Made by a program: the position numbers and the translations under genes | Shown here: positions 2,926 to 5,821 of the stretch, piece by piece | Layout of the letters: each line of letters opens with the position of its first letter | Position numbering within the stretch: the stretch's first letter is position 1 | The notes under the pieces: model-generated | What the model was told of the DNA's origin: nothing | What the model saw: only the letters and a program-made list of their open reading frames with translations | Databases searched by the model: none | From: Desulfobulbaceae bacterium | Lineage (GTDB): Bacteria; Desulfobacterota; Desulfobulbia; Desulfobulbales; Desulfobulbaceae | NCBI GenBank assembly: GCA_007121995.1 | Contig: SKJK01000225.1 | Location: forward strand, 1-8,809 | Direction: 5' to 3' | Length of the DNA: 8,809 nt

Positions 2926-2954
2926 TTGACAACGCTTCTTGTTATCTGTAGAGT
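2926..2954 (+). promoter_or_regulatory. Sigma70-type promoter of the selenopeptide cassette
   Basis: A perfect -35 hexamer TTGACA (2926-2931) is followed by a 17-base spacer and the -10 hexamer TAGAGT (2949-2954, four of six consensus bases). Transcription would start near 2961, giving a leader of about 75 bases before the ATG at 3036. The leader contains an AT-rich inverted repeat (AAATAG at 2979-2984, CTATTT at 2992-2997, with a T-rich loop) of unknown importance. The position, between glpK and the precursor gene, fits a dedicated promoter. Confidence 0.7.
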
Positions 2955-3035
2955 TTTGACCTATAGGCGGGCATTGAAAAATAGATTTTTTCTATTTAAG
3001 CCTGTTTTCGTCATCATCCTGACAAGGAGGTTCTC

Positions 3036-3341
3036 ATGAAAAACAAGGATCTGAAAAAGCTGCTCGCCGGGCTGGGTATTGCCGGGCTGGTCAGCGTCGG
3101 CGGCGTCCATATCCCGGGGGCGCAGGCATCCGGGAGCGGTTGAGGTGCCAAACCTGGCGCCGGGAGCGCCAGCGAAGTGGAACAGCCCGCAGCGGGCAGT
3201 GGCTGAGGCGGCATGAAAGACAGTGCCGTGAGCACTGACAAAGAAAAAGATAAAGATCCGGCCACCGAAGAGCACAATGATGAACCGAAAGAGGACCAGG
3301 TACCTCCTAAAAAACCAGCAAAAAGCGGCTGAGGCGGTTGA
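3036..3341 (+). CDS. Putative selenocysteine-containing RiPP precursor (three in-frame TGA codons)
   Basis: Conventional gene calling would stop this gene at residue 35. The ATG at 3036 has a near-ideal AAGGAGG (3024-3030) five bases upstream. Reading TGA at 3141, 3204 and 3330 as selenocysteine (U) gives 101 residues with U36, U57 and U99, ending at TGA 3339-3341. All three TGAs lie in the same protein context: GSGUGA, GSGUGG and KSGUGG. The neighbouring Ser and Gly codons differ synonymously (AGC/AGT, GGT/GGC), so the protein motif is what is kept. Residues 1-32 look like a leader: basic start (MKNKDLKK), hydrophobic LLAGLGIAGLVSVGG, then an Ala-Gln-Ala that resembles a cleavage site. Between U57 and U99 lies a very charged Lys/Glu/Asp linker ending in Pro/Lys. 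A SECIS-like hairpin follows each recoded TGA. The radical SAM maturase gene is next downstream. The gene matches what I recall as 'selenobiotic' peptide precursors. The final structure and activity are unknown. Confidence 0.87.
3154..3172 (+). promoter_or_regulatory. SECIS-like hairpin for the first TGA (U36)
   Basis: A perfect 7-bp stem (CTGGCGC at 3154-3160, GCGCCAG at 3166-3172) closes a 5-base loop CGGGA. It begins 11 bases after the TGA at 3141-3143, with the loop 18 bases after it. That is the distance and size expected of a bacterial selenocysteine insertion element read by SelB inside the coding region. It also encodes part of the peptide, so its sequence serves both protein and RNA. 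Confidence 0.7.
3221..3237 (+). promoter_or_regulatory. SECIS-like hairpin for the second TGA (U57)
   Basis: A perfect 6-bp stem (CAGTGC at 3221-3226, GCACTG at 3232-3237) closes a 5-base loop CGTGA, nearly the same loop as in the first hairpin (CGGGA) and with the same GC closing bases. The loop starts 21 bases after the TGA at 3204-3206. The shared loop in unrelated coding sequence argues for a common RNA-binding role, most likely SelB recognition. Confidence 0.7.
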
Positions 3342-3348
3342 TTGACAC

Positions 3349-3365
3349 TCGTGCAGTTGGCACGA
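3349..3365 (+). promoter_or_regulatory. SECIS-like hairpin for the third TGA (U99), beyond the stop codon
   Basis: A perfect 6-bp stem (TCGTGC at 3349-3354, GCACGA at 3360-3365) closes a 5-base loop AGTTG. The loop starts 23 bases after the TGA at 3330-3332 but only 14 bases after the terminal TGA at 3339-3341. It lies wholly in untranslated RNA, so it is conserved for no protein reason. Loop position two is G, as in the other two hairpins. Confidence 0.62.
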
Positions 3366-3372
3366 AATACCT

Positions 3373-3411
3373 GACAAGGGATACCGGTGCTGTGGCACCG
3401 ATATCCCTGTC
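3373..3411 (+). other. Long hairpin between precursor and maturase genes
   Basis: An inverted repeat with arms 3373-3390 and 3395-3411 forms about 16 base pairs: GAC, a bulged A, AGGGATA, one C/A mismatch, CGGTGC, a TGTG loop, and the complementary arm. There is no T-run after it (GTCTTCGG follows), so it is not a standard terminator. It could stabilise the 3' end of the short precursor message, act as a processing site, or attenuate transcription so that more precursor than enzyme is made. The maturase ATG is only 19 bases further on. Confidence 0.6.
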
Positions 3412-3429
3412 TTCGGACAAGTTACTCCC

Positions 3430-4986
3430 ATGGTGCATGCGAACCAGTCTCTGACCGTCATCTACCCGATCAGTTCCCGTCTGGCTGAGGCATTGCCCCC
3501 TGCCCTCTCACCGGCAGATTTTCCCGCTTACCTGACCACACACCCTCTGACCCACACCAAACACCCCTATCTACCTGAACTTGCCACCATCGAACTGGCT
3601 CGCTCCCAGCTGAACTCCGCCCCGACGACTCAGCCAGTACCGGACCACAGGCACACCATCAATCCAACAGTCCAGCTACTGGAGGTTGAATGGACGGGTT
3701 TGCCCGAATTTCTCGCAGATCAATCCGTCCAGCCACAGGAGAAAAAAGCACTGGTCCTGTTGTATCAGCCCGGCCCTGACGCCGCTGCCAAAGTCTGCAC
3801 CCCGCATGGGCATGATGTCCTGGCCTTAAAAATGGTCATGGAGCAGCTCGACAGGAAAGACGTTGCCCGTGCGGCCGGTGTCACCATCGGCAGAATCGAT
3901 GAAATCCTCGCCGCGGCGGTGCACAAGAAGTTGATCTATGCTCCGCCCTCATCCCTGGTGCGTGAACAGATCTTCCGGCAGGGTGGCTTTGAGTATTCCA
4001 GCCCGACACGAGTAGCCACCTTTGCCCTCCAGTGGCATCTGACTCAGGCCTGTGATCTGCACTGTCGGCACTGCTATGATCGAACCAGTCGGCAGGATAT
4101 GGAACTTTCCCAGGCTATCCATGTGCTCGACCAGTTGTATGCCTTCAGTCGAGCGCATCATGTCGATGCCCAGGTGAGTTTCAGCGGCGGTAATCCCATG
4201 CTCTACCCGTTCTTTTATGAACTCTACCAGGAAGCGGTGGATCGCGGTTTTCTGGTGGCTATCCTCGGCAACCCCATGGAGGAGCGGTACGTACAACGGG
4301 TAGTGGAGATCAAACGACCGGAATTTTACCAGGTCAGCCTGGAGGGACTGCGGGAGCACAACGATTACATACGGGGTAAGGGGCATTTCGACCGAACCCT
4401 GGCCTTCCTCGATCTGCTCCGCAACTATGATATTTACTCGATGGTCATGCTCACCCTGACCCGGGCCAATTGCGATGAGGTTCTGGCCCTGGCCGACGTG
4501 CTTTGCGGCAGAACCGACCTGTTCACCTTCAACCGCCTGGCAATGGTAGGGGAAGGAGCCGCACTTGCCTCTGTTGAGATCGACCGTTTCCCGAAATTTC
4601 TCGAAGCCTTTCTCGGCGCGGCTGAAAGCAATGCCTGCCTCAGCCTCAAAGATAATCTTTTCAATCTGCATCTTGCAGCACAAAACAGGCCGCTCACCGG
4701 TGGCTGTACCGGATTTGGCTGCGGGGCGGCGTTTAATTTTGTCTCTGTCCTTCCCGATGGCAAAGTCCATGCCTGCCGAAAATTCCCCTCACCCATCGGC
4801 AATATCTATACCCAATCCCTCAACGATATCTATGCCAGTGAACCAGCGCGAAAATATAGGGCCGGAACCAGTTCCTGCCAGGACTGCCAACTGCATCCCG
4901 TTTGTCGCGGTTGCGCCGCCGTTACCCATGGGTTCGGCCTTAACGTTTTGACGGATCGGGATCCGTATTGTTTCAAAGCACACTAA
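3430..4986 (+). CDS. Radical SAM/SPASM peptide maturase of the selenopeptide cassette
   Basis: 518 residues. The N-terminal third has no cysteine cluster and includes a helical, winged-helix-like stretch around residues 129-170, which may bind the precursor leader. The radical SAM core starts near residue 200: C208-DLH-C212-RH-C215 is the CX3CX2C motif that holds the 4Fe-4S cluster used to cleave S-adenosylmethionine, and FSGGNP is the following GG motif. The C-terminus is a SPASM-type region for auxiliary clusters, with C426, C431-X12-G-X4-C449, C483, C486, C492, C495 and C514. It differs slightly from the classic pattern in having CX2C at 492-495 instead of CX3C. Such enzymes modify ribosomal peptides by radical chemistry, often forming thioether or carbon links at Cys residues; here the likely targets are the Ser-Gly-U-Gly sites. 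The gene lies 88 bases after the precursor and the ATG has only a weak ribosome site (GGA 12 bases upstream), suggesting low translation relative to the precursor. I recall a family named 'selenobiotic family peptide radical SAM maturase' that fits. Confidence 0.88.
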   Translation: MVHANQSLTVIYPISSRLAEALPPALSPADFPAYLTTHPLTHTKHPYLPELATIELARSQLNSAPTTQPVPDHRHTINPTVQLLEVEWTGLPEFLADQSVQPQEKKALVLLYQPGPDAAAKVCTPHGHDVLALKMVMEQLDRKDVARAAGVTIGRIDEILAAAVHKKLIYAPPSSLVREQIFRQGGFEYSSPTRVATFALQWHLTQACDLHCRHCYDRTSRQDMELSQAIHVLDQLYAFSRAHHVDAQVSFSGGNPMLYPFFYELYQEAVDRGFLVAILGNPMEERYVQRVVEIKRPEFYQVSLEGLREHNDYIRGKGHFDRTLAFLDLLRNYDIYSMVMLTLTRANCDEVLALADVLCGRTDLFTFNRLAMVGEGAALASVEIDRFPKFLEAFLGAAESNACLSLKDNLFNLHLAAQNRPLTGGCTGFGCGAAFNFVSVLPDGKVHACRKFPSPIGNIYTQSLNDIYASEPARKYRAGTSSCQDCQLHPVCRGCAAVTHGFGLNVLTDRDPYCFKAH

Positions 4987-5155: not shown

Positions 5156-5821
5156 TTAAAAACGCCTGGTTTGGTACCTTTGCCGTGAAAACTTCATCGA
5201 TTGGCTGAGTAATTTCTCGGGCGGCCCGATCCAGGCATAAGCAAGCAGAGTTGGCTCAAAATCACCTGTTGTCAACCGATGAGTTTTATGAGGAGGGTTG
5301 AATATCAACGACCCGGGGACAAAGACACCGGCATCCCCCTCGGAAACAACACCGCTGAGACAGACATAGGACTCACTTACCCCATCGTGGCTGTGAGCCG
5401 GATAAACACAGCGGGGTGCAAACAGAACCAGGCCAAGAGCCAGACATTCGCTGACAACTGGCCCGCGGGGACTCATTAATTCGGCATAAGCATATTTCGG
5501 CTTCAAACCCGGCGGCATGCGCTGGTACCCGTACTCCCATTCCAGTTGATCAACAATCTGCTGGATACTGCGGATCAGGCCGGCACCGACGCCAAGCATA
5601 CCTTGATCAAGAGCTCGCCCCAGCCAGTCACAGGCCGGCAATAGCTGTGCCTGCCGTTGCAGCAGTTCAGGATCTTTGTCCATCTCATCGCTCAGGCGAT
5701 TGCGCACCTCCCGTTTATGCGATCGAATCGGTTTGCTGCCTCCTGCGGAATGAAAACGGTAGATGGTCCAGAATTCTCTCAACACATAATACCAGGCAAC
5801 GTGTTCGCTCAGTTTTGTCAT
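5156..5821 (-). CDS. dddL: Cupin protein, DMSP lyase family (DddL-like)
   Basis: 221 residues, no signal peptide. The N-terminal half is helical and contains AGGSKPIRSHKREVRNRL. The C-terminal half is a cupin barrel: YPAHSHDGVSESY supplies His143, His145, Glu150 and Tyr152, and GSLIFNPPHKTHRL supplies His178 or His181. It closes with PTLLAYAWIG. This arrangement (YP-H-x-H, E-x-Y, a second-motif His, then LLAYxW) is what I know from DMSP lyases. These cleave dimethylsulfoniopropionate to dimethyl sulfide and acrylate with a divalent metal. The length suits DddL (about 230 residues) rather than the shorter DddW or DddK. One residue more than usual separates His145 from Glu150, so the substrate should be treated as open. 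The ATG at 5821 has AAAGG seven bases upstream (5829-5833). It converges with the maturase gene; no acrylate-using genes are nearby. Confidence 0.66.
   Translation of the reverse strand: MTKLSEHVAWYYVLREFWTIYRFHSAGGSKPIRSHKREVRNRLSDEMDKDPELLQRQAQLLPACDWLGRALDQGMLGVGAGLIRSIQQIVDQLEWEYGYQRMPPGLKPKYAYAELMSPRGPVVSECLALGLVLFAPRCVYPAHSHDGVSESYVCLSGVVSEGDAGVFVPGSLIFNPPHKTHRLTTGDFEPTLLAYAWIGPPEKLLSQSMKFSRQRYQTRRF

Follow-up and report, generated by a model that had tools for sequence, protein, structure and literature searches.

Introduction

The SbtA/SbtM system, in which a precursor peptide (SbtA) is encoded next to a radical S-adenosylmethionine (SAM)/SPASM maturase (SbtM), belongs to the ribosomally synthesized and post-translationally modified peptides (RiPPs), and the original paper on this thio(seleno)oxazole system is reportedly that of Lewis et al. 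from 2021 (Biochemistry 60:3347). In vitro, SbtM is described as removing four hydrogens from both Cys and selenocysteine (Sec) substrates, with the Cys product being a thiooxazole by nuclear magnetic resonance (NMR; PMC11002830), and the table of a 2026 review lists the precursor family TIGR04081 as “Selenobacteriocin” with the motif SGUG and 2 Sec (PMC13188914). A second group of peptides is made by unrelated iron enzymes, the multinuclear nonheme iron-dependent oxidative enzymes (MNIOs). MNIO precursors with signal peptides for the Sec export route are reported to pair with PME-type 1 (DUF2063-RRE) partner proteins, which were speculated to mask the signal peptide until modification is complete (PMC12452194). 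According to a preprint, MNIO-PME1 pairs make 5-thiooxazoles in copper-binding peptides named captophorins, and PME1 proteins are dedicated MNIO partners almost universally encoded beside these enzymes (PMC12668002). A lipidated peptide of the oxazolin type is also reported (PMC12636315).

Here, we analyze an sbtA-sbtM pair in an 8,809-nucleotide stretch of DNA (hereafter the window; contig SKJK01000225.1 of assembly GCA_007121995.1), which is one contig of a draft Desulfobulbaceae genome with a completeness of 56.8%. The pair is SbtA/SbtM and thus a member of a named family whose Cys/Sec-to-thio(seleno)oxazole chemistry has already been published: It shares with that family the leader, the SGUG core, a hairpin downstream of every UGA, and an adjacent SbtM, and both proteins score over the curated cut-offs. 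Unlike the review table entry with 2 Sec, the precursor of the window has three, in which we found no bar to membership. A first-pass annotation had invoked the name “selenobiotic”; its prediction of a ribosomal Sec peptide stands, while the antimicrobial sense of the name finds no support in the gene neighborhood and the family already had its SbtA/SbtM name. Its statement that no such product had been structurally solved is corrected by the in vitro characterization and NMR data cited above. Beyond the known family, we add evidence for UGA decoding, linkers encoded by selenocysteine insertion sequence (SECIS) elements, export-type leaders, and a partner module in SbtM.

Results

A conserved precursor reading frame with three in-frame UGAs

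The precursor gene and its signals are arranged as follows:

2926–2954, forward strand: promoter-like site TTGACA-17-TAGAGT (consensus scan, 10/12 matches; by itself no evidence of function)
3024–3030, forward strand: ribosome-binding site AAGGAGG (sequence), 5 bases ahead of the ATG
3036–3341, forward strand: sbtA precursor gene, 101 codons with 3 UGA as Sec and a TGA stop (TIGR04081, 44.5 bits, cut-off 30.5)
3036–3128, forward strand: leader, residues 1–31, signal-peptide-like, predicted cut after A-Q-A (TIGR04081 match over residues 1–23; rule-based reading)
3141–3143, forward strand: UGA 1, predicted Sec36 (translation)
3204–3206, forward strand: UGA 2, predicted Sec57 (translation)
3330–3332, forward strand: UGA 3, predicted Sec99 (translation)
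3339–3341, forward strand: TGA stop (TAA at the same place in the related loci L032 and L033)

Translation bore out the first-pass reading of three UGAs in frame within 101 codons, each in S-G-U-G and surrounded by synonymous codons, whereas the standard code gives 35 codons from the same start. With TGA as Sec, positions 3036–3338 read MKNKDLKKLLAGLGIAGLVSVGGVHIPGAQASGSGUGAKPGAGSASEVEQPAAGSGUGGMKDSAVSTDKEKDKDPATEEHNDEPKEDQVPPKKPAKSGUGG. The ribosome site and promoter that had been proposed ahead of the gene were both recovered at the positions given above, the latter as the 1 promoter-like site found versus 0.3 expected in shuffles, and the SPASM radical SAM gene said to follow does so at 3430–4986, starting 88 bases past the sbtA stop.

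Relatives were gathered by SbtM, by leader, and then by a purpose-built leader profile, which resulted in 58 distinct precursors; close relatives were not down-weighted in any count. Our sample of the phylum comprised 395 genomes, 39 with SbtM over the cut-off and 356 others, and homologous leaders (E ≤ 0.001) were found in 37 of the former and 2 of the latter. These two matches (G176 and G305) are probably false, as the frames that contain them are 363 and 356 codons long and the genomes have no SbtM over the cut-off. In three genomes (G088, G339, and G376), the leader match and SbtM are found on separate contigs; the two genes are thus not necessarily linked.

The nearest named locus is that of Desulfobulbus alkaliphilus DSM 24258 (L032), with an SbtM identity of 80% and, for the most part, the same neighbors. 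Compared with this locus, sbtA differs at 3, 8, and 20 places in codon positions 1, 2, and 3, and the ratio of nonsynonymous to synonymous differences (pN/pS, simple counting) amounts to 0.35 upstream of the first UGA and 0.30 downstream of it. Together with the co-occurrence of leader and SbtM, these values argue that the frame is not a chance one. The homologue check suggested in the first-pass annotation gave the same answer: homologues carry either UGA or a Cys codon in this core motif, and the frame runs on beyond the first UGA.

The number of Sec per precursor ranges from 0 to 4, with three being most frequent (24/58) and two to four found in 49 of the 58. Cys-only or mostly-Cys precursors occur near the same type of maturase in L045, L047, L015 (second copy), L076, and L083. 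When the sbtA precursor was used as query, a protein-database search returned two 57-residue fragments and nothing else; the database entries P0002 and P0003 are relatives with Trp or Gly in place of the first Sec and end directly before the second UGA.

SECIS-type hairpins follow each UGA, and the internal ones also encode the peptide linkers

Behind each UGA of sbtA lies one SECIS-like hairpin:

3151–3175, forward strand: SECIS 1, apex at +20, within the coding sequence (model R1, 25.2 bits, E 4.4e-5)
3217–3241, forward strand: SECIS 2, apex at +23, within the coding sequence (model R1, 28.6 bits, E 5.5e-6)
3345–3369, forward strand: SECIS 3, apex at +25 from UGA 3, past the stop (model R1, 22.9 bits, E 1.9e-4)

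Since an Rfam scan of positions 2950–3450 returned no SECIS family, only two matches attributable to chance, we built our own covariance model from 51 sites of other species, excluding the window sequence, L032, and L033. Briefly, 64 non-redundant sites gave an output of 60, of which 5 odd ones were dropped; from the remaining 55 aligned sites, L012, L066:1759, L076 (out of register), and L066:1622 were removed. In an unfiltered run over the window, the three sbtA sites were the top 3 of 22 matches. The next match (15.9 bits) is a strong hairpin at 3378–3407 between sbtA and sbtM, GGGATACCGGTGC-TGT-GGCACCGATATCCC, which is present as a single copy in the genome and has an in-frame TGA (3372–3374) just ahead; it is not conserved in L032 or L033 and was set aside as a fourth SECIS. 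In the SECIS of the E. coli fdhF type, the apex lies about 20 nt past the UGA and carries GG or GU. The sbtA hairpins resemble it in both respects and differ from it in being several per gene, one for each UGA, with the last outside the coding sequence.

Across the 58 precursors, a hairpin with a stem of at least 5 pairs and an apex 17–28 nt downstream was found at 130 of 140 UGA sites, compared to 3 of the 37 Cys codons located after residue 30. Internal UGA sites had such a hairpin in 84 of 91 cases, while synonymous recoding left 28.6 ± 3.7 (maximum 41 in 200 trials); because of this excess, the hairpin RNA itself appears to be under selection. Changes on both sides were seen in all six stem pairs, and 98.7% of the paired cells hold a pair, a value that is biased upward because the model sites had been chosen for holding a hairpin; the recoding test is independent of this choice. 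A peptide motif of the form (G/S)A(G/V)(S/G)(T/S/A) follows soon after 77 of 90 internal UGAs, compared to none of 23 internal core Cys. As the hairpin spells this motif in frame, the repeat-like peptide is a footprint of the RNA signal, and each internal Sec is followed by a linker translated from its own SECIS.

Two observations in relatives concern the spacing and fate of such sites. In L014, L017, L029, and L084 (also in L066), two UGAs lie 3–5 codons apart and the best hairpin of the first is reached only some 30–40 nt further on; a single SECIS may thus serve both. At residue 95 of the L006 precursor, a C-terminal Cys site (GGSGCSG) is still followed by a SECIS-like hairpin and is perhaps a recent Sec-to-Cys change.

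The gene most likely ends beyond the third UGA

Given that L032 and L033, the two nearest relatives, have TAA at the place of the final TGA and that the third hairpin, located beyond the stop, is identical in the window and in these two loci although the flanking sequence differs, comparison of the sequences indicates that UGA 3 is most likely decoded and that the gene ends at 3339–3341. Across the family, TGA is rare as the real stop, ending 6 of 57 precursors versus 96 of 214 other open reading frames (ORFs) with 150 or more codons at these loci (p 5.5e-7; L035, whose end was misplaced, was left out, and the ends of the 8 precursors with a possible TGA stop were set by hand patterns).

Selenocysteine machinery of the source genome

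SelB is encoded in the same genome (E 4.4e-108), as are two tRNA-Sec genes (L096 and L097; 73.1 and 57.4 bits, cut-off 47) that ARAGORN calls as tRNA-SeC with anticodon tca. The selB and selC part of the check proposed in the first-pass annotation thus came out positive (for selA and selD, see Discussion). With SelB and tRNA-Sec present and the frame conserved, neither of the two outcomes that had been named in advance as speaking against a Sec peptide, namely absence of this machinery or homologues lacking Cys/Sec at the TGA positions and a conserved frame, was observed. For tRNA-Sec, only matches over the cut-off were used because matches below it also occur in all 14 control genomes. Of the 39 SbtM genomes, 38 have SelB at E ≤ 5.3e-94 (the exception, G113, is 76% complete), which is weak evidence alone because SelB scores over the cut-off in 353 of the 395 genomes. 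The start of a selD gene at a contig edge (L095, 1–240, contig C295) contains an in-frame TGA within KAAG-U-AAKLGPGDLG, and the selD product of the source genome is therefore likely a selenoprotein as well, judging from its sequence.

SbtA leaders resemble export signals

SbtA leaders have a mean of 3.1 Lys/Arg in their first nine residues, followed by a hydrophobic stretch and then A-x-A or a lipobox; in the window, A-Q-A precedes the first core motif. A lipobox was found in 14 of 58 leaders (13 of them credible) versus a mean of 4.4 and a maximum of 11 in shuffled sequences; that of L002 is probably spurious, its Cys falling in the core motif. By sequence, these leaders look like export signals, some of them of the lipoprotein type, and the lipobox leaders of some relatives suggest envelope retention.

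The maturase carries a module related to the partner proteins of MNIOs

The maturase gene comprises the following parts:

3430–4986, forward strand: sbtM, radical SAM/SPASM maturase, 518 residues (TIGR04082, 633.5 bits, cut-off 350; Pfam Radical_SAM and SPASM)
3430–3954, forward strand: SbtM residues 1–175, module homologous to DUF2063-RRE (PME) partners on alignments and models (hhalign E 2.6e-12 with null controls; Foldseek; VIA-align)
4039–4488, forward strand: radical SAM core, residues 204–353, with CxxxCxxC at 208–215 (PF04055, 49.5 bits; motif)
4720–4914, forward strand: SPASM domain, residues 431–495 (PF13186, 43.9 bits)

C208, C212, and C215 as well as eight C-terminal cysteines are invariant in 50 sequences. 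The catalytic half shares its fold and related sequence with SkfB, SuiB, CteB, and other radical SAM/SPASM maturases of RiPPs. Because the fold comparison of the whole model mostly covered residues 173–516, we folded the N-terminal half alone. Profile alignment and structural models agree that this half is homologous to the DUF2063-RRE “PME” proteins, which are partners of the unrelated MNIOs. PF09836 scores over the cut-off in 4 of 118 genomes of the phylum, and none of these 4 has an SbtM over the cut-off. As far as we searched, neither this link, which we regard as new, nor the export of SbtA appears in the open-licence literature; the original paper of Lewis et al. 2021 may describe either.

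Genes surrounding the pair

When 18 loci were compared using the standard code (sbtA was traced separately via its own profile), SbtM was the only gene common to all; other shared genes occur in 2–3 loci, mostly of close relatives. A scan of 15 flanking genes from nine relatives showed a varied set, mostly of housekeeping type, with one encoding another radical SAM protein and one giving no match. Two other genes of the window are:

5156–5821, reverse strand: cupin protein with a match to dimethylsulfoniopropionate (DMSP) lyase (PF16867, E 1.4e-32), of the 18 loci also present in L032
6682–7266, reverse strand: gene resembling a DUF2799 lipoprotein

Discussion

Our explanation of the sbtA-sbtM pair has five steps, the first four of which we jointly consider probable. 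SelB and tRNA-Sec would read UGA 1–3 as Sec, which is strongly supported, while hairpins 1 and 2 would also spell the linkers. By analogy with the SbtM tested in print, we infer that the core residues are converted to thio(seleno)oxazole, with SbtM taking four hydrogens off each SGUG unit and closing a five-membered ring, which would be a selenooxazole here. The fused module, for which homology is shown, likely binds the leader and holds back export until core modification is complete; since SbtA leaders fit the pattern of MNIO-PME1 precursors, SbtM would hold the leader, modify the core, and then release the peptide for export. The leader would send it via the general export route, to the periplasm in this organism and as a lipoprotein in some relatives. 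In the fifth and least certain step, which we propose only as a tentative possibility by analogy with the thiooxazole peptides made by MNIOs, the selenooxazoles would be envelope ligands for copper or some other soft metal.

Several observations weigh against parts of this explanation. The hairpin is missing at the set distance in 10 of the 140 UGA sites, selA was not found in the incomplete source genome although it is present in 8 of 8 relatives searched, and both matches to selD are fragmentary and score below the cut-off. The A-x-A signal is weak, with 25 of 58 leaders by a rule-based reading versus 17.6 ± 2.8 (maximum 27) in shuffles. The N-terminal domain of SbtM in the window has no Pfam match, including to the PF09836 model, DUF2063 was reached in 2 of 34 N-terminal members with a best E of 0.017, and a sequence-profile search of the PDB with this half missed the partner proteins and gave only a designed scaffold (E 0.37). 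A shared fold of the SbtM module and PME is no proof of a shared role, and the window and the flanking genes scanned gave no pointer to a metal.

That the UGAs might be ordinary stops, with the gene making a leader-like peptide of 35 residues and the frame after it having decayed, would agree with standard gene calling and with the missing selA. This is exceedingly improbable in light of the frame conserved past the first UGA, the covarying hairpins at the right distance, the Cys codons that take the same place in the core motif of relatives, and the presence of SelB and tRNA-Sec. If the UGAs are decoded, Sec itself, and not a ring, could be the working group of a peptide that is exported as a selenium store or carrier or for redox purposes, with SbtM modifying part of it or acting otherwise. 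Two to four Sec in most precursors would suit such a role, and Sec-rich carriers such as selenoprotein P are described in animals. However, SbtM accompanies the precursor in 37 of 39 genomes, the maturase is also retained next to precursors that have only Cys, and tested SbtM is reported to oxidize the residue to a ring (PMC11002830), which makes this explanation unlikely.

The product could also be a secreted antimicrobial that harms competing bacteria, as “selenobiotic” and the “Selenobacteriocin” label of the 2026 review table (PMC13188914) imply. The leaders look exportable, as such a product would require. Antimicrobial activity is also frequent among RiPPs whose maturases are radical SAM enzymes. 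Yet no dedicated exporter or leader peptidase was found among the nine ORFs of the window or the 15 flanking genes, in a scan that could not recognize an unfamiliar immunity gene; SbtM is the sole gene common to the compared loci, and the lipobox leaders of some relatives point to retention in the envelope. We judge an antimicrobial role to be quite unlikely, and a metal-binding peptide of the envelope would fit better because the system has two genes, no exporter, export-type leaders, and lipoprotein variants.

Multi-Sec peptides that are later modified are rare, and the link between SbtM and PME turns the “selenobiotic” label into a testable idea, that of an exported selenium counterpart to the copper-binding thiooxazole peptides. 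The preprint describes PME1 as a dedicated MNIO partner (PMC12668002), and a homologous module that forms part of a radical SAM enzyme extends beyond this description. With one stretch of nucleotides serving as both SECIS and peptide linker and up to four UGAs per gene, the SbtA family should also be useful for studying the rules of UGA decoding. In its broadest form, our proposal is that thiooxazole metallophores have a selenium branch in which SbtM would have arisen by fusion of the complete DUF2063+RRE recognition module of the MNIO world to a radical SAM/SPASM enzyme, so that two unrelated catalysts reach one and the same five-membered ring by way of a shared module for substrate handling, and in which an exported, sometimes membrane-anchored selenooxazole peptide with RNA-written linkers would, in anaerobes, capture copper or a different soft metal within the envelope; we rate this as somewhat short of an even chance.

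Compared with the bufferins, oxazolins, and fontiphorin, i.e., the captophorins, SbtA/SbtM has the same ring type in its reported Cys product, a repeated Cys/Sec-Gly core, leaders of the signal-peptide or lipoprotein type, and a DUF2063-RRE recognition module. Unlike in captophorins, the catalyst is a radical SAM enzyme and not an MNIO (a Pfam scan of the nine window proteins found no member of that family), the recognition module is fused to the enzyme, and selenium takes the place of sulfur.
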